Assembly (NCBI GenBank): GCA_028284235.1
Contig: JANQSC010000071.1
Location: 1 to 64,000, forward strand
Length of the DNA: 64,000 bases
Origin: Opitutaceae bacterium
GTDB lineage: Bacteria > Verrucomicrobiota > Verrucomicrobiia > Opitutales > Opitutaceae
Direction of reading: 5' to 3'
Shown here: one piece after another, positions 2,799 through 10,510 of the stretch
How positions within the stretch are numbered: position 1 is the stretch's first letter
How the letters are laid out: each line of letters starts with the position of its first letter
Made by a program: the position numbers and the translations under genes
The notes under the pieces: generated by a model
Databases searched by the model: none
The model's input: the letters and a program-made list of their open reading frames with translations, nothing else
Told to the model about the DNA's origin: nothing

Positions 2799-2875
2799 TG
2801 GCAGGGCAGGAGGGACTCGAACCCCCGACCACCGGATTAGAAATCCGATGCTCTATCCAGCTGAGCTACTGCCCC
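2799..2875 (-). tRNA. tRNA-Arg (anticodon UCU), CCA encoded
   Basis: Read on the minus strand, a full cloverleaf runs from GGGGCAG at 2875 to a genomically encoded CCA ending at 2799. The acceptor stem GGGGCAG/CTGCCCT pairs apart from one wobble. The D-arm contains AGCTCAG-CTGGATAGAG. The anticodon loop TTTCTAA gives UCU, and the T-arm carries GGTTCGAGTCC. It reads arginine AGA codons. An integrase remnant begins directly at its 5' side. Confidence 0.93.
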
Positions 2876-3184
2876 GTTCGATTCGCCTGAGGCGAAAGAA
2901 GGCGGAACGAAACACCAGCGACCTTCAAAACTCAAGACTGAAAATCGCGCGGATCGACACTGCGAAAACAGTGCTGATCTCTGCGACGGGAATCGCGGAG
3001 TTACCACACTTTGATCATCACTGCTTGCGTCACTATTTCGTTAGCAATGCGATTGAAAAGGGAATTGATTTTAAGACCATAGCGGCAGGGGTTGGGCACA
3101 AAGACGGCGGGTTGCTGGTTGCGAGAACTTACGGTCATCTGCGGGGACGCTCATTTGCATGAAATGGCCAAGTTGATGGCCTAG
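2876..3184 (+). pseudogene. Remnant of a tyrosine recombinase (phage-type integrase)
   Basis: Only the C-terminal catalytic part survives. It shows an 'HCLRHYF' box (HxxR), then 'VGHKDGG' (GH box), then 'ARTYGHLR' with the tyrosine nucleophile. No N-terminal DNA-binding domain or start is present; the frame is simply open from the tRNA edge. After 'YGHLR' the frame ends early, but shifting one base near 3142-3146 (a cgggg run) restores a family-like tail (GDAHLHEMAKLMA) ending at 3182-3184. It is therefore both truncated and frameshifted. It probably once drove integration of the neighbouring island at tRNA-Arg. Confidence 0.75.
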
Positions 3185-3273: not shown

Positions 3274-3792
3274 GTGGGATTCTCCTCTGAAATTGCTTCG
3301 ATTGAAGAAGCTAGGATTTACTATCCGAAACTGAAAAAGCGGTATCGAAGGCTGTTCCTTCTAGATATGACGCTCTGGGGCGCGTATTCATTGTTTGGAC
3401 TTTTTCATCTCGTAATCGCTGTAATTGAAAGCCGCAGCGTCGTTTATCATCTGTCAATTGGGACGAGTGTCGTGATCGTTGCTTGTTTGGGAATTTGGGC
3501 TAACTGTCTCCTGAGAAAAGGCGAGGCCAAAGGTGAGTCGCTAAGCTGGTTTGCTACCGTTTTTGTGCCCCTTCTTCAGGTGATTGGTTGGGGGATTTTG
3601 ATCTGGTGGATTGCGAGGCAAATAGGAGCCCCGCCATTTTCAGCGCTTCCAGTCTTGGTAGTACCCTCGTTTTATTTGTTTTTCTTGTTCGGGTCCTACC
3701 GGGCGATCTACCACATCGCGGTACGCGGGCATGTTAAGTTGTTTATTGTGGGTCGAAAAGAACTTGCGAATAGGATAAAGGTGGATTTGTAA
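3274..3792 (+). CDS. Hypothetical four-helix membrane protein
   Basis: This 172-residue protein starts at GTG 3274. A short soluble N-terminus is followed by four hydrophobic segments at about residues 30-52, 56-78, 89-112 and 120-138, and a short charged C-terminal tail. I do not recognise a family. It precedes the immunity-type cluster by 24 bp on the same strand and shares its AT-richer composition, so it probably belongs to the acquired region. The start is uncertain because no strong ribosome site is seen. Confidence 0.55.
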   Translation: MGFSSEIASIEEARIYYPKLKKRYRRLFLLDMTLWGAYSLFGLFHLVIAVIESRSVVYHLSIGTSVVIVACLGIWANCLLRKGEAKGESLSWFATVFVPLLQVIGWGILIWWIARQIGAPPFSALPVLVVPSFYLFFLFGSYRAIYHIAVRGHVKLFIVGRKELANRIKVDL

Positions 3793-3816
3793 ACGCGAGC
3801 AGTGCCGAATTAGCGA

Positions 3817-4401
3817 ATGAATTGGGTCATAGTCGATTGGACGAATATCCAGAACTCAGACGAGTTCTACGACTCGGTTTTCATGCAAACCGGAGCCCCA
3901 TCCTGGCATGGGCGAAACTTAGACGCGATCAATGATTCTTGGATTGTAGGATCGATTTGCGAAAAGGGCCCGCCTTTTGGGTTTGTTTTCCTAAACGAAA
4001 AAACAGTCTGTTCCGCATTGATCGAACTACAGGGGGCTATCCGTGAAATTTCAGAAAGGTCAGTAGAGGAAAACGAAGGTGAGATCGTTTCGGTGGATGA
4101 TCTGAAAGCAGATATCTTGGGTAGAATCCAAGAGAATTTTGGTGAGGACTACCACTTGGCCCTTCTTGAGATTGGCAGGTGGAAGTCTGAGGCAGAAGGG
4201 GCTGTTGTGGATCGTGTATTACGAGCTGTCGTTCACCTGGCGAGTGGAAGCCTAGACGAGCTTAAGCGCATGATTGTAGTCGCGAGGCAAGATTTTAGAG
4301 ATGTACTGTATTGGTCAGAATACGACGAATTTAAAATAAGATTACGGGACTTTAATAACCCTTTTGGTGAAGAAGTGATCGATTGCCCTGAGCAGAGATG
4401 A
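3817..4401 (+). CDS. Barstar-family immunity-like protein with C-terminal helical domain
   Basis: This protein has 194 residues. Residues 1-70 match barstar: a start strand ('VIVDWTNI'), a Phe/Tyr helix, then 'WHGRNLDAINDSW', the barstar signature that contacts and blocks an RNase active site. Residues about 95-185 form a second domain with 'LASGSLDELKRMI' and 'FRDVLYWSEYDEF', resembling the helical domains often found on bacterial immunity proteins. It overlaps the next gene by 4 bp (ATGA), so the two are translationally coupled. No barnase-like toxin gene is seen nearby. It is probably an orphan immunity gene against a secreted nuclease toxin. Confidence 0.75.
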   Translation: MNWVIVDWTNIQNSDEFYDSVFMQTGAPSWHGRNLDAINDSWIVGSICEKGPPFGFVFLNEKTVCSALIELQGAIREISERSVEENEGEIVSVDDLKADILGRIQENFGEDYHLALLEIGRWKSEAEGAVVDRVLRAVVHLASGSLDELKRMIVVARQDFRDVLYWSEYDEFKIRLRDFNNPFGEEVIDCPEQR

Positions 4402-4658
4402 AGACTGACGACGTAAGGAAGTATTTTTGCAAGGACTCGCTCTACGTGGTGAAACGAACTACGAAGACCGGATTTCAGCGAGACTCAGAGATTCAAGCAG
4501 GGACAAAAGTCCGGTTTAGGCATTTCCAGTATAGTCACTATGATGGGTGCTTTGCTTGCCATTTTGAAAATTTAGATACAAATCAGAGTCTAGAATTATG
4601 GATACAAGAAGAAGCGACAAATCGAGAGCTAGACGAGATTTTCGAACCAGTTAAGTAA
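4398..4658 (+). CDS. Small hypothetical protein in immunity-type cluster
   Basis: This protein has 86 residues and begins within the stop of the barstar-like gene (ATGA overlap). It contains 'LYVVKRTTKTGFQRD', an aromatic-rich middle ('FRHFQYSHYDGCFACHF') and an acidic end. The pattern resembles small DUF3601-like immunity or accessory proteins, but similarity by eye is weak. There is no signal peptide or membrane segment. Coupling to the barstar and DUF5063 genes suggests it works in the same protective unit. Confidence 0.55.
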   Translation: MKTDDVRKYFCKDSLYVVKRTTKTGFQRDSEIQAGTKVRFRHFQYSHYDGCFACHFENLDTNQSLELWIQEEATNRELDEIFEPVK

Positions 4659-4659
4659 A

Positions 4660-5172
4660 ATGGAATCATACCTAAAGCTATTGGAGCAGTACTTCGAGTT
4701 GATTGAAAACTGTTCCAGCCAAACAAAAGAGAGTTTCTTGATTCGGTGTGCTTCACTAGTTCCCATGCTCTATGTTGCGACTCAAGAGCTGCCGAAGTCG
4801 AAAGAGATTAGAGATGAAGAAATCGACGTGGATCGCTCCCAGGTCAATTCACCGATGGCTAGAATATTGGACCTATTAGGAGAGGAGGCGTATTACGACG
4901 AAGTCTTTGATCCCGTTGAAGATTGCGAGTTGGTGAAGGCAAATATCGCGGACGACTTAGCTGATATCTATCTCGATCTAAAATCTGGATATTTGAAATG
5001 GAGTACAGGCACAGAGGAAGGGATGGACGAGGCTCTCTGGGATTGGGCATTTTCACTCGAATGTCACATGGGAGATCACATGGTCGATGTCATGAGGCCA
5101 ATCCATCGAATGATCAGGATGGGTTTCAACCAAAACCGACGCGAACGAGTTACTTCTGATAAGAATAACTAA
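4660..5172 (+). CDS. DUF5063 family protein
   Basis: This acidic 170-residue protein is probably all-helical. The N-terminal helix 'YLKLLEQYFELIEN', the central 'LVPMLYVATQELP' and the C-terminal 'DIYLDLKSGY' followed by 'HMGDHMVDVMRPIHRMI' match the DUF5063 pattern. The function of the family is unknown. Members often sit beside immunity genes of polymorphic-toxin systems, as here. It starts 1 bp after the preceding stop, which indicates one transcript for 3817-5172. Confidence 0.7.
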   Translation: MESYLKLLEQYFELIENCSSQTKESFLIRCASLVPMLYVATQELPKSKEIRDEEIDVDRSQVNSPMARILDLLGEEAYYDEVFDPVEDCELVKANIADDLADIYLDLKSGYLKWSTGTEEGMDEALWDWAFSLECHMGDHMVDVMRPIHRMIRMGFNQNRRERVTSDKNN

Positions 5173-5618
5173 CGCATTCTTTGCCGGTGATGGTGAAAGC
5201 TGAGTCAATCGAAGTCAAACGAGGCCAAGCAACCGTTTCCAAATGGGAGCGAGTTCATTCCTAGACCAAATGAAAAGCCCTGAGGGAGCATCTACGTAAG
5301 CGGGTGCCCCTCGGGGTCTTTCCTTGATTAAACAATTAATAATTGTCCGAGTGCACTTTTGTTCTGGAGCATAAAGACATTCTTGGTACGAGATCTTCGT
5401 CTTAAAAGTCGGCGAAAATTCCCGACAATCAGTAGGAAGAACATCAGGCGTAGAGTGATATAGGATTCTCCCGAATCACCCCATTTGGGACGCCATTGGA
5501 ATAGAATCAACACCCGAACTAGATTGAATCACCTAAATCTGGCTTGAAAAGTTTCTATTAGCTGGGATGATATGACGGCCTTGTCAGATTAACCTAATTA
5601 CAAAAACCAACTCAACAT
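5173..5618. other. 446-bp gap without a credible gene
   Basis: This gap holds the terminator-like hairpin at 5278-5325 and AT-rich DNA after it. The short open frames on either strand lack start context and coding-like composition. It separates the immunity cluster from a solitary membrane-protein gene. Confidence 0.5.
5278..5325 (+). terminator. Rho-independent terminator-like hairpin
   Basis: The arms CCCTGAGGGAGCA (5278-5290) and TGCCCCTCGGGG (5305-5316) pair with one bulge and one G-T pair. They are followed by TCTTTCCTT. It lies 106 bp after the DUF5063 stop and probably ends the 3817-5172 transcript. Confidence 0.5.
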
Positions 5619-6122
5619 ATGTATGACGATTATCTAATACAGCTCGGTCGTGAAGCTGGCCTGACCCTCTTCGATTTTTTGCTGCTGTCCTTGTGCCCTA
5701 TCGCAACTATGCTTGGAACGATGGTTTCGAACGCTGTATCCAAGATCATCAACAAACCAGAGTATGAACCTGAAACCGAGTTGCCGCCACACCTCCAAGC
5801 AAAGCTAGGAGCCGGCGATGACGAAGAAATCGCATTAGCCCGGTACAACGCAGAACGAAGAGATTGGCATGAAAAAAATACTGCAAGAGAACGTAGGGCT
5901 GATTCATTACGGCTTCCGTTCGTCGGTTTTGTGTTAGGATTGGTTATTGCATTATATTTCGTCGGAGCGATCACAACCAGTGTAACATCTTTGGCCAGGG
6001 TTTTAGGGTTGTGTGTTCTTCTGGGCTATCAAGCACCATCACTTTGGATCACACAAGAGAAGGCCATTAAGAAATTTGTGGACAAGAAAGTTGAATCGCT
6101 GATTGGAAAACACACTCAATAA
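5619..6122 (+). CDS. Hypothetical membrane protein
   Basis: This protein has 167 residues. There is one hydrophobic segment near residues 16-43 and a hydrophobic block at about 107-145 long enough for one or two helices. A charged cytoplasm-like stretch (residues 48-100, rich in Glu and Arg) separates them, and the C-terminus is basic. I do not recognise a family. It stands alone between a terminator-like hairpin and the PHP-ATPase gene and could be a membrane partner of either neighbour, but nothing shows this. Confidence 0.5.
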   Translation: MYDDYLIQLGREAGLTLFDFLLLSLCPIATMLGTMVSNAVSKIINKPEYEPETELPPHLQAKLGAGDDEEIALARYNAERRDWHEKNTARERRADSLRLPFVGFVLGLVIALYFVGAITTSVTSLARVLGLCVLLGYQAPSLWITQEKAIKKFVDKKVESLIGKHTQ

Positions 6123-6237: not shown

Positions 6238-8382
6238 ATGAAAATCGATATTCATTCACACACGAAGCAGTGCAAGTCGGGTGATGCACCGAGTCGCGAG
6301 ATCGCGGCGAAAGATTTTTGTGAAGCGTTGCGGGCAACTGAAGTCGGGATCATCGCGGTCACGAACCACAATGTCTTCGATCTTACGCAATTCGAAGAGA
6401 TTCTCGAAGAAATGGACGGCGACACTCAGGTCTGGCCCGGCATCGAGCTTGACGTCGCCTATGAAGGCGCGCGGGGGCATTTGCTTGTAATCGTTTCGCC
6501 GGATAAAGCAGATGAGTTCTCCGCGGCTGTTGACGACATCACCGATGGCTCAACGCCTGACAAATTCGAGACCACAATCGAGGAGGTGCTTGAGCGGTTC
6601 GATACACTCGGGCCTCTTTACGTTGGGCATTACAAGCAGAAGAAACCCAATCTCTCTGATGAAGCGATCGAAAAGCTGATCACCGGATCAGCCCGCCCCG
6701 CGCGGGTTATCAAGGAGGTCGCGAATTCAATCTCAGCAGGGATCTATATTTCACACGGTCACGCCTCGATCTACGGATCCGACATTCACGACTGGGAGAA
6801 GTATGAAGAGGAAGCGCGCGAGCTGCCTGACCTAAGACTGCCGGTAGAAAGCTTCGAGCATTTTTGCCTGCTCCTCGAGAAGGATCCGACTACTATAAAT
6901 ACCACCCTTGACCAAAAGGTCGCAGAGGATCTGATCCTCACGCCCTTTGAGGATAGCACAATCATCAAGCTAAGAGTCTATAACGACATCAATGTCGTTT
7001 TCGGTCCAAAAGGCACTGGCAAGTCCTGTCTGCTCAAGGCCATCGCTAAGCACTACAGCGATAGCGGTATCGAGGCCGAGGTCTACGTTTCAGACAGCGG
7101 CCGTCTTGATACGAGCTTTGATATAAAGGGTAAAAACCTCTCCCTAAACTTAGAGCCGCTCGGCATCAGCTATTGCAAGGATGAGATCGAGGCTCTCAAG
7201 AAGGCCCACGAAGGAGGCGTGACGAGCCTTAGCAGGTATGTCGGCTTCTTTCGCACCAAGGCGACCAATAAGAACGCCAAGAAGATTAAACTCAAGGATA
7301 TCGAGCCGGAGAAGACGGCATCTGCCGAGCGTGAGTTTGGTGAGTTTAATAAGGCTGTGATCAAGACCGATGAATTCATCACATTCTTGCGTGAGCATCC
7401 GGCAGTGCAAGCAGAGCTGGAAGACAAGGAACGCACCGATCTGATAGAAAAGCTCTCAAGGATTTTGGAACGTCTCGAGGGTCGCGAATGGAATAGTTTT
7501 GCAGGATGGAAAGAAGTGGTATTGATGAATAGCGCGATTGAAATGTTCCGGAAAGAAGTGGAACGCAAAACCGGTTCACCTGCAAAACCGACAAGCACCG
7601 GTTTCAAGAAATATGCGATTAACCGGGCGACCATCGAGGCGAACGCCGCTGCCATTATCAAGAGCTTCGATACCAGGATTCGAATTGAAAAGCAGCCGGT
7701 TGGCAGTCTCGGTCCCAACAAGGGCAATCTCGAGCTGTGCACTGTCCTCAAGTTCCAGAACGGCAGGATCTCAGATGGCTCGCTTGGCAAGCACAAGGCC
7801 ATAAAGAAAAAATCGCTTAAGGATTTTGCGAACGCAATTAGAAAGATCCGGAGCTATGCCTACAAGGACGATCTATTCCTACACATCACCGTATTGAACG
7901 ACATCGAAGATATCGAGAAAATCGAAACCGTTTACGAGTTACTGCTCTTCAAGAGATATTTCGCGCTGGACGGAAAGTCATATGCCCCTTCCAGCGGTGA
8001 AGCCTCTATGATTATGCTGCAAAAAGAGCTGGAGACGGATAAGGAAGTCTACATCCTCGACGAGCCGGAAAAAAGCCTCGGGAATGAGTATATCAGCGAT
8101 GTCATCGTGCCGCTGATCAAGGAGCGGGCACGTGCCGGCAAGAAGGTCTTTTTGTCAACGCACGATGCAAACATTGCGGTCCGGACCTTGCCCTATTGCT
8201 CGGTCTATCGCTGCCACGGCTCGGAGGGCTACGCCACATACATCGGCAATCCCTTCTCGAATGACCTCGCCAATCCAGACGATGAAGCCGACCGGCACGA
8301 CTGGAAGAAGGTGAGTATGAGAACACTTGAAGGCGGCGAAGAGGCCTTCGGAGAGAGAGGAAAAATCTATGGAAACGGTTGA
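6238..8382 (+). CDS. PHP-domain / ABC-type AAA ATPase fusion (candidate defence nuclease)
   Basis: This 714-residue protein has two halves. The PHP metal-dependent phosphoesterase domain (1 to about 200) keeps its metal ligands: H6xH8, 'TNHN' 42-45, E70, H81, H173/H175 and SDxH at 181-184. An SMC/ABC-like ATPase follows, with Walker A GPKGTGKS at 256-263, a signature-like 'SSGEAS' at 585-590, Walker B 'YILDEPE' at 605-611 and an H-loop His at 642. A charged helical insert lies between Walker A and the signature. The order matches TrlF-like and Ppl-like (PHP plus ATPase) proteins, some of which protect against phage. The gene overlaps a small acidic partner by 14 bp. Its composition is GC-richer than its neighbours. 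The substrate is unknown; nucleic acid is an inference. Confidence 0.8.
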   Translation: MKIDIHSHTKQCKSGDAPSREIAAKDFCEALRATEVGIIAVTNHNVFDLTQFEEILEEMDGDTQVWPGIELDVAYEGARGHLLVIVSPDKADEFSAAVDDITDGSTPDKFETTIEEVLERFDTLGPLYVGHYKQKKPNLSDEAIEKLITGSARPARVIKEVANSISAGIYISHGHASIYGSDIHDWEKYEEEARELPDLRLPVESFEHFCLLLEKDPTTINTTLDQKVAEDLILTPFEDSTIIKLRVYNDINVVFGPKGTGKSCLLKAIAKHYSDSGIEAEVYVSDSGRLDTSFDIKGKNLSLNLEPLGISYCKDEIEALKKAHEGGVTSLSRYVGFFRTKATNKNAKKIKLKDIEPEKTASAEREFGEFNKAVIKTDEFITFLREHPAVQAELEDKERTDLIEKLSRILERLEGREWNSFAGWKEVVLMNSAIEMFRKEVERKTGSPAKPTSTGFKKYAINRATIEANAAAIIKSFDTRIRIEKQPVGSLGPNKGNLELCTVLKFQNGRISDGSLGKHKAIKKKSLKDFANAIRKIRSYAYKDDLFLHITVLNDIEDIEKIETVYELLLFKRYFALDGKSYAPSSGEASMIMLQKELETDKEVYILDEPEKSLGNEYISDVIVPLIKERARAGKKVFLSTHDANIAVRTLPYCSVYRCHGSEGYATYIGNPFSNDLANPDDEADRHDWKKVSMRTLEGGEEAFGERGKIYGNG

Positions 8383-8674
8383 AGCATCAGTGGTCGAAGA
8401 GGACGAAAAATACTTCATCGAGATTACGATCGGAGAGGAAATGATTTGGATCCCTTTGTCGGAGGATAAACCTAAGGAGGTTAAGAGTGCATTTAACAAA
8501 CTAATCGAGCGGATCAAGGAAGGCGAATTCGAGATCGAACTGGATGAAGTTGGTGAGGATCTCTTTTCGCAGGTCGCAAACGAATACATCACCCAGCTAA
8601 ATCGCGAGATCTCCGAAGTGCGCGAAGAAATGATTTATCTTGGCCTTATCGAGGAAGACGAGGAGGACTCCTAG
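8369..8674 (+). CDS. Small acidic partner of the PHP-ATPase
   Basis: This very acidic protein has 101 residues. ATG 8369 is chosen because a purine-rich ribosome site (gagagagagg) lies just upstream; a longer frame would start at 8327. A beta-like start ('YFIEITIGEEMIWIPL') is followed by two charged helices ('AFNKLIERIKEG' and 'EVREEMIYLGLIEE'). The start lies inside the end of the ATPase gene (14-bp overlap), so the two are almost certainly co-translated. I do not recognise a named family. Roles consistent with this context are an inhibitor, DNA mimic or sensor for the ATPase. Confidence 0.7.
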   Translation: METVEASVVEEDEKYFIEITIGEEMIWIPLSEDKPKEVKSAFNKLIERIKEGEFEIELDEVGEDLFSQVANEYITQLNREISEVREEMIYLGLIEEDEEDS

Positions 8675-8830: not shown

Positions 8831-9301
8831 ATGAATCCATCTTGGGTCACAGCTATCGCCTCCACTATTTTTGGAATAAGTGCTATCTTTTTTGCTTATC
8901 AACAATGGAAGATAAATACATCCAAACTTAAGCTCGACCTCTTTGAAAAAAGATACGCAGTCTACGATGGTGTCCGAAAGTTCCTTTCTGTCATCTTAAG
9001 TGAAGCCACGTTCACCGATAAAGACCTTTTTCAGTACTACGCAGACACGTCTGATGCCGAGTTCTTATTTGGCTCGGAGGTTGTTACCTTCATCGATAAA
9101 GTGAAAAGAAAATCTTTGCGAATGAGGACTTTGCAGAAAAAATATGACAGACTTCCCACAGGAGAAAAACGAAGTGAACTAGTAGAAAAAGAACATGTTG
9201 AACTTGAATGGTTGATGGGTCAATTATCTCAATTAAGGAAGGTGTTTTCTCCTTATCTTTCGTTTTCCAAGGAAGCTAATGATCCTTTTGATGTAATATG
9301 A
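8831..9301 (+). CDS. Hypothetical single-pass membrane protein
   Basis: This protein has 156 residues. A single N-terminal transmembrane helix (about 5-23, 'WVTAIASTIFGISAIFFAY') is followed by a charged helical cytoplasmic domain. Its 'LKLDLFEKRYAVYDGVRKFL' type of motif is widespread in short uncharacterised membrane-anchored proteins of accessory regions. The DNA is clearly AT-rich compared with the flanking core genes. No enzyme motif is visible. The gene is alone on its transcript as far as can be judged. Confidence 0.6.
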   Translation: MNPSWVTAIASTIFGISAIFFAYQQWKINTSKLKLDLFEKRYAVYDGVRKFLSVILSEATFTDKDLFQYYADTSDAEFLFGSEVVTFIDKVKRKSLRMRTLQKKYDRLPTGEKRSELVEKEHVELEWLMGQLSQLRKVFSPYLSFSKEANDPFDVI

Positions 9302-9429
9302 ATTTATCAGACATAGTTCTCCAACAGACCAACCAATCAGGAAAAAAGTAACTGGTTAGAACCAGTCGGGAGATACAATAGATTTCGTTGTGCTCATCTA
9401 TGAATCCCCTCGACGTTGGACCAGACTAA

Positions 9430-10107
9430 ATGAAAATCGCGTCTTACATAGCATCAGTGCTGGTTCTGGCATTTGCACTCTGGGCAGGATACCAAGACAG
9501 GGTCGCTGTGATGTCGGTCGCCGCAGTATTTTTCTTCGGGGTTCTGTTCTTTGCGAATATCGACCGAATTTCGTCCTTCAAAGCCGGAGCAAAGGGATTT
9601 GAAGCTGAGACTCGAGAAATCGTGAAAGAAGCCAAAGATGTAACCAGAGAATTGCGAAGACTCGCGGTGATTTTGGTAGAGAACCAACTTACCTCAATTC
9701 AGAGAGTAATGCGGCTCGGTGGATACACCGATGCTGACAAAGAGGCTCGAAAAGCAGCTCTTGTCGATATACTCAAAGATCTAGAGATCCCTGACGAAGA
9801 GATCCAACGAGCATTGAAAGAATGGAACGAGCTTATCATTTTTGATTATGCGCACCACCTTTTGGGAGGCGGATATCGCCCTTCGAATCTTTCAGAGGAA
9901 GCGATGGCGGATTGGGAAGTTCTCCGAAAAGGAAAGCTCTACGATATGCCTCGCCCTTCTCAAATCCGCGATTTTGTCACGAAGCATGGATTGATCACTC
10001 CCGAGATAGATGAACGAATTGAGGACTATGCATACTTCCTTGAGCACAAGAGGATCCGAAGACCTGAAGATTTTGCACTGAGGGACAAGTGGAAACTCAC
10101 CGACTGA
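9430..10107 (+). CDS. Hypothetical membrane-anchored protein
   Basis: This protein has 225 residues. Two hydrophobic helices (about 4-20 and 23-42) are followed by a helical region with charged heptads (50-100), then a mixed region that ends 'YFLEHKRIRRPEDF'. No family is recognised. The stop is followed 3 bp later by an attC-like site (10110-10176), so this gene plus that site has the shape of an integron-type gene cassette, although the case is weak. Confidence 0.55.
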   Translation: MKIASYIASVLVLAFALWAGYQDRVAVMSVAAVFFFGVLFFANIDRISSFKAGAKGFEAETREIVKEAKDVTRELRRLAVILVENQLTSIQRVMRLGGYTDADKEARKAALVDILKDLEIPDEEIQRALKEWNELIIFDYAHHLLGGGYRPSNLSEEAMADWEVLRKGKLYDMPRPSQIRDFVTKHGLITPEIDERIEDYAYFLEHKRIRRPEDFALRDKWKLTD

Positions 10108-10109
10108 AT

Positions 10110-10176
10110 GTCCAACAAGACGCTACACTCAACTCCGGGACTAACGTCCCTGCGTCGGGTGAGCTCCACGTTAGCC
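10110..10176 (+). repeat. attC-like inverted element (candidate cassette recombination site)
   Basis: The 67-bp element begins with GTCCAAC (fits RYYYAAC) and ends with GTTAGCC, so the AAC/GTT trinucleotides of the outer boxes face each other. The inner part has a hairpin GGGAC-TAAC-GTCCC and partly matched flanks (CTCA/TGAG). Size and placement just after a stop codon are typical of attC sites. The outer boxes are only partly complementary and one base departs from the GTTRRRY consensus. Confidence 0.35.
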
Positions 10177-10228
10177 AAGAAACTGAATACAGGAAAAACC
10201 AACCTTCAAAACCCCACCCAAACCCAGA

Positions 10229-10510
10229 ATGAGTTTCGTTCCACAAACAGCATCTGAAGTAGAGTCATCGCCAGACTTCGAATTGAAGCATACTACCTCT
10301 AATGGAATAAAGATTTACATTAGAGAACTAACAGAGGAGCAAGCTGACTCAATCATCGTTGCGACTAGAGATGACGAGTTTCTTTCATACCAAGAGGATT
10401 CAAAAAGACTCATGGTAACGATTAAAGATGATGAAATAGTTGAAGGAGAATTCGACGATACTGACGACACAATGGAAGTGATGGACTTCATGGTAGACAA
10501 TGGATTGTAA
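10229..10510 (+). CDS. Small acidic hypothetical protein
   Basis: This protein has 93 residues and is strongly acidic (many Asp and Glu, ending 'DDTDDTMEVMDFMVDNGL'). There is no membrane segment or recognised motif. It sits exactly between the two attC-like elements, the position of a gene in a cassette. Composition is AT-rich. The ATG at 10229 follows a C/A-rich leader without a clear ribosome site. Confidence 0.5.
   Translation: MSFVPQTASEVESSPDFELKHTTSNGIKIYIRELTEEQADSIIVATRDDEFLSYQEDSKRLMVTIKDDEIVEGEFDDTDDTMEVMDFMVDNGL

Follow-up and report, generated by a model that had tools for sequence, protein, structure and literature searches.

According to a review (PMC12904381), Ppl of Escherichia coli is an NTP-inhibited PHP exonuclease that carries its PHP and NTPase domains in one protein and is encoded by a single gene. 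The stretch of Opitutaceae DNA analysed in this work (64,000 nucleotides, hereafter the window) codes for a protein, A, in which the same two kinds of domain are paired; unlike that of Ppl, the locus comprises two genes, A and B. TrlF (NF045780) likewise combines PHP and ATPase domains and, in the six TrlF-type copies that we compared, ends in a C-terminal tail (EG--AF-R) similar to that of A, but these copies are longer (872–913 aa) and no overlapping B-type gene of ~100 aa was seen next to them. Lamassu systems contain a small partner of an SMC-like ATPase. The likeness to A and B includes a very weak LmuC match (E 0.003–0.006), but this match is at chance level and A has a PHP domain of its own. 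The Lamassu gene set (LmuB, LmuC and LmuA) was not recovered, since that chance-level match to B is its sole counterpart and the ten neighbours of the pair in the window had no PADLOC match at E < 0.001.

PADLOC-DB also holds a two-gene candidate defence system, PDC-M49A/PDC-M49B, with B models of 94, 97 and 135 positions and a name series that reportedly stems from a preprint. As in the window, the gene after the PHP-ATPase overlaps it and codes for a protein of ~95 aa, the A proteins are homologous over their length, and B starts in the same frame and on the same Tyr codon; by contrast, the A of the window matches only distantly and falls in a separate clade, and its B matches none of the B models. 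Because the layout is catalogued, A is distant and B is unmatched, the window pair is, judged by sequence, a divergent subtype of this candidate and not a new kind of system. The first-pass annotation, which had presented the locus as a candidate two-component anti-phage system, did not notice that the layout was already catalogued. We found no paper on PDC-M49 by name in open-access PMC, nor any description of a PHP-ATPase paired with a small partner in open-access PMC titles and abstracts. The window pair widens the candidate to include a clade with a partner gene that escapes the PADLOC-DB models, and its two genes make a clear construct with which to ask why a small co-translated partner is required by a PHP-ATPase but not by Ppl.

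The A/B gene pair and its motifs

Gene A is an open reading frame of 714 aa (6238..8382, + strand) coding for a PHP phosphoesterase domain joined to an ABC/SMC-like ATPase. It is followed on the same strand by gene B (101 aa, 8369..8674), whose ATG at 8369 lies within A, so that the two genes overlap by 14 bp (8369..8382); relatives of B stand beside A elsewhere. The ATPase portion contains a Walker A motif (GPKGTGKS, residues 256–263, 7003..7026), a Walker B motif (YILDEPE, residues 605–611, 8050..8070), an ABC-type signature upstream of the latter (SSGE, 585–588) and an STH switch downstream of it (640–642). The lengths of both proteins, the overlap and the two Walker motifs agree with those initially reported from the raw sequence. 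The PHP domain spans residues 1 to ~190 (6238..6807) and was recognized from sequence and from nine positions which we take to be its metal ligands (H6, H8, D16, H44, E70, H81, H131, D182 and H184); all nine are present in the A of the window, in line with the earlier claim of an intact ligand set.

Most of the metal positions and the ATPase motifs are also kept across an alignment of 14 A proteins. Six of the nine ligand positions (H6, H8, H44, E70, H81 and D182) are invariant, while H131 is kept in 10 and H184 in 7 of the 14, and in the rows of the nine canonical PDC-M49A proteins the Asp corresponding to D16 is displaced by one column towards the N-terminus. In the ATPase, K262 of Walker A as well as G587, D608 and E609 are invariant (14/14), and the ABC-type His, H642, is kept in all 13 rows that reach its column. 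Pfam reported no PHP model for A, its sole models above cut-off being ABC_tran and AAA_21; the PHP assignment relies on the NCBIfam TrlF model (E 1.6e-20, best stretch at residues 2–103, with 73.5 bits against the more than 350 expected of a TrlF), the NCBIfam CehA/McbA metallohydrolase model (E 4.7e-5, below cut-off), PADLOC PDC-M49A and the ligand motif. A is related to TrlF and PDC-M49A, which bears out its first description as a TrlF-like PHP-ATPase. An AlphaFold2 (AF2) model of A was set aside (mean pLDDT 43.9).

B had been described as very acidic and without a family, and both points hold: its pI is 4.05 and its net charge −23 over 101 aa, and no family was found at E < 0.001 in Pfam, NCBIfam, PADLOC or PHROGs. 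Its best AF2 model, built from 3 sequences, reached a pLDDT of 76.3 and a pTM of 0.61 (the other four models, 51–66) and predicts a beta-beta-beta-alpha-beta-alpha fold, with strands at residues 2–11, 14–21 and 24–29, a helix at 35–51, a strand at 54–58 and a helix at 65–90. A fold search with this model (pLDDT 76) retrieved nothing at E ≤ 0.001 from PDB or BFVD; RNase H-like and ribosomal proteins, the top PDB matches, were discarded as kin of B at TM scores of just ~0.33–0.43. Matches of B-type proteins to LmuC, REase_II and Cas8b (E 0.0002 to 0.022) differed between relatives and were attributed to chance, as was a PDC-S11 match (E 0.0016) to the B of an IMG/VR contig (L028). By eye, the order of strands and helices in canonical PDC-M49B resembles that of the AF2 model of the window B.

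Conservation of the pair and kinship to PDC-M49

In all 15 other loci that reach past the end of A, a B-type gene overlaps this end. These loci (L001, L024–L028, L031 and L033–L040), all found through A, come from Myxococcota, Photobacterium, Alphaproteobacteria, plasmids of Staphylococcus and Enterococcus, and one IMG/VR contig. Two of them, L033 and L040, share one B accession and are thus not independent, and the Staphylococcus aureus record L027 has B with no A annotated, just a tblastn match to the end of A; two further loci, L002 and L042, end inside A and are therefore uninformative on B. Reverse searches with three B proteins retrieved plasmid records that hold A or part of it in every case (1/1, 1/1 and 3/3, the query's own record being counted in the last two). 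Among 387 genomes of the phylum, a strong B match occurred only in the window's own, along with two weak ones (E 4.6e-4 and 0.006) within frames of 576 and 422 aa. On this comparative evidence, A and B are a real, conserved two-gene unit with B as a dedicated partner. The first-pass annotation had proposed such a partnership, and the conservation of B beside PHP-ATPases in other genomes, on which that proposal hinged, is borne out.

Full-length relatives of the window A are 49–71% identical to it, and relatives of B that stand beside an A gene are 69%, 47%, 39% and 21–25% identical to the window B. The closest pair, in a genome labeled Myxococcota by the tree tool (L001), has 71% identity in A and 69% in B, followed by a Photobacterium plasmid (L024; 51% and 47%) and the IMG/VR contig (49% and 39%); the A of L002 is 68% identical, and L042 belongs to a second genome of the phylum. 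A third group consists of plasmids from Staphylococcus and Enterococcus (L025, L026, L027), where B is complete but what is annotated of A amounts to short pieces or nothing; L025 and L026 have a B that is homologous to window-type B (hhalign 96%, E 2.3e-9).

The overlapping junction is itself conserved. In the window, the ATG of B is formed by the TAT Tyr codon of A and the next G, and the same Tyr codon plus G, in the same frame, provides the start of B in all 15 loci in which both genes could be read (the window included, L027 excluded), with overlaps of 11, 14, 20 or 23 bp and always one frame. For the staphylococcal plasmid L031 this start is the said ATG and not the annotated one 18 bases upstream, and in the window, L001 and L028, where B is unannotated, the start was chosen by us. 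A Shine-Dalgarno-like GAGGA for B lies at 8357..8361 (+ strand), within the A frame (residues ERGK), and a similar word occurs at most 20 bases upstream of B, in the last codons of A, in 14 of the 15 loci by raw count; the word is missing in L034 and is only 14 bases away in L028. This conservation of Tyr codon, frame and Shine-Dalgarno-like word suggests translational coupling of A and B, as expected for subunits of one complex. The junction is the same on both sides of the long branch that parts window-type A from canonical A. A tree of the 14 proteins places the five window-type rows in a clade of their own (100/100), at 2.22 changes per column from the nine canonical ones, a length at which, as the tree tool warned, branches can mislead.

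The kinship of A to PDC-M49A is evident: in a search without score cut-off, the window A matched this model at E 1.8e-37. Canonical pairs match far better, with best-model E values for A of 1.7e-210 on a Staphylococcus capitis plasmid (L031, where B reaches 1e-22), 3.7e-263 in Enterococcus faecalis (L033), 6.9e-260 in Phaeobacter (L034) and 0 in Enterococcus casseliflavus (L036). The PDC-M49A model is loose: at E ≤ 0.001 it picked up 121 of the 288 genomes searched in the phylum and also 10 of the 14 used as controls, in most cases by a short piece of PHP or ATPase, and no genome other than the window's own had a strong match that took in both ends. B directly after A and overlapping it, as the PDC-M49 layout has it, is what the window contains (14 bp). 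B itself matched none of the three PDC-M49B models (PDLC04681, 04682, 04683) at E up to 1 by hmmscan, and direct searches of the window's genome with two of the three gave no match up to an E of 10. A and the layout thus qualify for PDC-M49, and the B sequence does not. Window-type and canonical B have no homology detectable by hhalign (0.3–0.4%), so that one B may have taken the place of another or B may have been gained on two occasions, and the two types may be of independent origin.

Genomic setting and possible function

The pair lies in a low-GC stretch that has a tRNA-Arg (2799–2875) at its edge, upstream of the pair, and extends to about position 14 kb. An open reading frame overlapping this tRNA (2848–3162) holds a remnant of the C-terminal part of a tyrosine-recombinase integrase (E 4.6e-6; 27.0 bits, just under the cut-off of 27.1); no repeat of at least 16 bases that could be an att copy of the tRNA was found within the window. 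Eight genes of this stretch (3274–6122 and 8831–10510) have a GC content of 38–47% (GC3 37–51) against 51.1% for A (GC3 62.9) and 45.8% for B (GC3 57.8), and the difference in composition from the neighbours had been seen correctly. A barstar-like gene (3817–4401) and a DUF5063 gene (4660–5172) on the same island are possibly of the immunity type.

The defence context of window-type loci is mixed. Restriction or nuclease genes adjoin three of the six: in L002, A stands 51 bp downstream of a McrBC-family gene, which is preceded by an McrB-like AAA_5 gene; in the Photobacterium plasmid, the pair adjoins a type II restriction-modification system; and in the IMG/VR contig it has a helicase/T5orf172 pair on one side and, on the other, a DUF4365 gene and a PDDEXK_4 gene (PDC-S26, of the PD-(D/E)XK kind). 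No such neighbour was seen in the window, and none appeared among the few genes checked in L001 (NikR and DUF3644; two by Pfam, the rest by eye) or among the few checked by eye in L042. The DUF3644 gene of L001 (7624–8163) follows the pair.

PDC-M49A proteins in the wider sense are common on plasmids. The S. capitis A matched 58 of 72,556 plasmid records, 45 of them from Enterococcus, and 40 of the matches covered at least 80% of its length. A genome-contig scan with a single query sequence yielded two loci, and closely related A proteins are rare, occurring in 1 of 257 genomes of the class of L001, namely that of L001 itself. GenBank phages had no match to the window A (1e-5) or to the S. capitis A (1e-6); two of six viral-contig scans found one and the same record, the other four no relative, and E. 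coli genomes had no DNA match to the Photobacterium pair.

Our preferred reading, to which we give about even credence, is that A and B form one two-subunit complex, a divergent PDC-M49 and probably Ppl-like, in which A would be a PHP nuclease or phosphoesterase that depends on metal and is gated by ATP, and B its obligate, non-catalytic, co-translated subunit. B would help A assemble or keep it inactive until infection; the ABC-type ATPase domain would sense nucleotides or DNA ends, and this sensing would release the PHP domain to degrade DNA. The nuclease activity, its gating by NTPs, the binding of B to A and the defence role of the pair are what we infer here; the shared PHP and NTPase pairing with Ppl is the basis for reading A as an ATP-gated enzyme with a co-translated B. 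In favour of this reading are the B-type overlap in 15 of 15 loci, the shared Tyr-codon start, the reverse searches with B and the homology between window-type B and that of L025 and L026, as well as the conservation of most metal positions and of the ATPase motifs, the PDC-M49A matches, the defence neighbours and the precedent of Ppl. Against it weigh the PADLOC-negative neighbours in the window and the neighbours of L001 and L042, the missing homology between window-type and canonical B, the overlaps at the tails of TrlF-type genes (see below), the looseness of the PDC-M49A model and the fact that H131 and H184 are not universal.

A pair akin to toxin-antitoxin systems, in which free A would be toxic, B would be a labile inhibitor removed by phage infection, and addiction would be the main reason for persistence on plasmids and islands, seems to us rather improbable and is still the strongest of the alternatives. 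B is small and acidic and has an overlapping start, such pairs often turn up on plasmids of Staphylococcus and Enterococcus, in several cases beside Fst toxins or recombinases, and other genes on the island of the window look toxin-antitoxin-like by eye. However, B lies downstream of A, whereas in toxin-antitoxin operons the antitoxin usually comes first; the S. aureus record in which B remains with no A annotated is neutral in this respect. We hold it unlikely that the pair is an enzyme complex for DNA repair or plasmid maintenance with no role in defence. PHP domains occur in polymerases and phosphatases as well, plasmids carry many of the copies and the annotated flanks of several are free of defence genes, but the patchy spread (of 387 genomes in the phylum, two have a close A, one of them being that of the window, and a third match, G048, is TrlF-type), the three loci adjoining restriction or nuclease genes and the kinship to the TrlF and PDC-M49 models speak for something else. 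That B could be a DNA mimic or a sensor of phage components regulating DNA binding by A, a role partly foreseen in the first-pass annotation, we judge very unlikely, because the charge of −23 that favours it is peculiar to the window copy, 15 relatives carrying merely −5 to −15.

Returning to the two-subunit complex, it can be extended, with clearly less confidence, to a broader and still doubtful proposal: the window pair might found its own lineage of two-component immunity based on PHP-ATPases, with B as a new family serving as an assembly or trigger subunit absent from Ppl, and PHP-ATPases might have repeatedly gained different partners at one C-terminal overlap site.

Tails of TrlF-type genes

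The PADLOC Ppl model (894 positions) was not among the best 25 of the 43 matches of the window A, and the full set of matches at E ≤ 1 of its Photobacterium relative lacks it as well. The six TrlF-type genes comprise one annotated as TrlF on a Polaromonas plasmid (L030), one that matches Ppl best (L047) and four labelled by us. The annotated TrlF of L030 matches the Ppl model (1e-28), which makes TrlF and Ppl look related; this gene adjoins the BREX genes brxL and pglZ.

TrlF-type genes keep a similar C-terminal tail, and in two of the six (L047 and L048) their end overlaps a different, larger downstream gene, whose start by its coordinates lies in the other frame. The tail of PHP-ATPases thus seems to be functional in itself and a recurrent site of overlap. 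Elsewhere, L049 and L050 have a frame of 363–364 aa and one of 230 aa starting 34–52 bases downstream of the TrlF-type gene, in L051 a GTG frame of 102 aa lies 140 bases downstream and there is also an overlapping GTG frame of 168 aa, and L030 has no such downstream frame. The overlaps in L047 and L048, both from genomes of the window's phylum, measure ~19 and 13 bp with genes of 318 and 395 aa. By eye, the protein encoded downstream in these two genomes looks like an ATP-binding protein of the AlbA_2/Schlafen type, which suggests another partner of PHP-ATPases.
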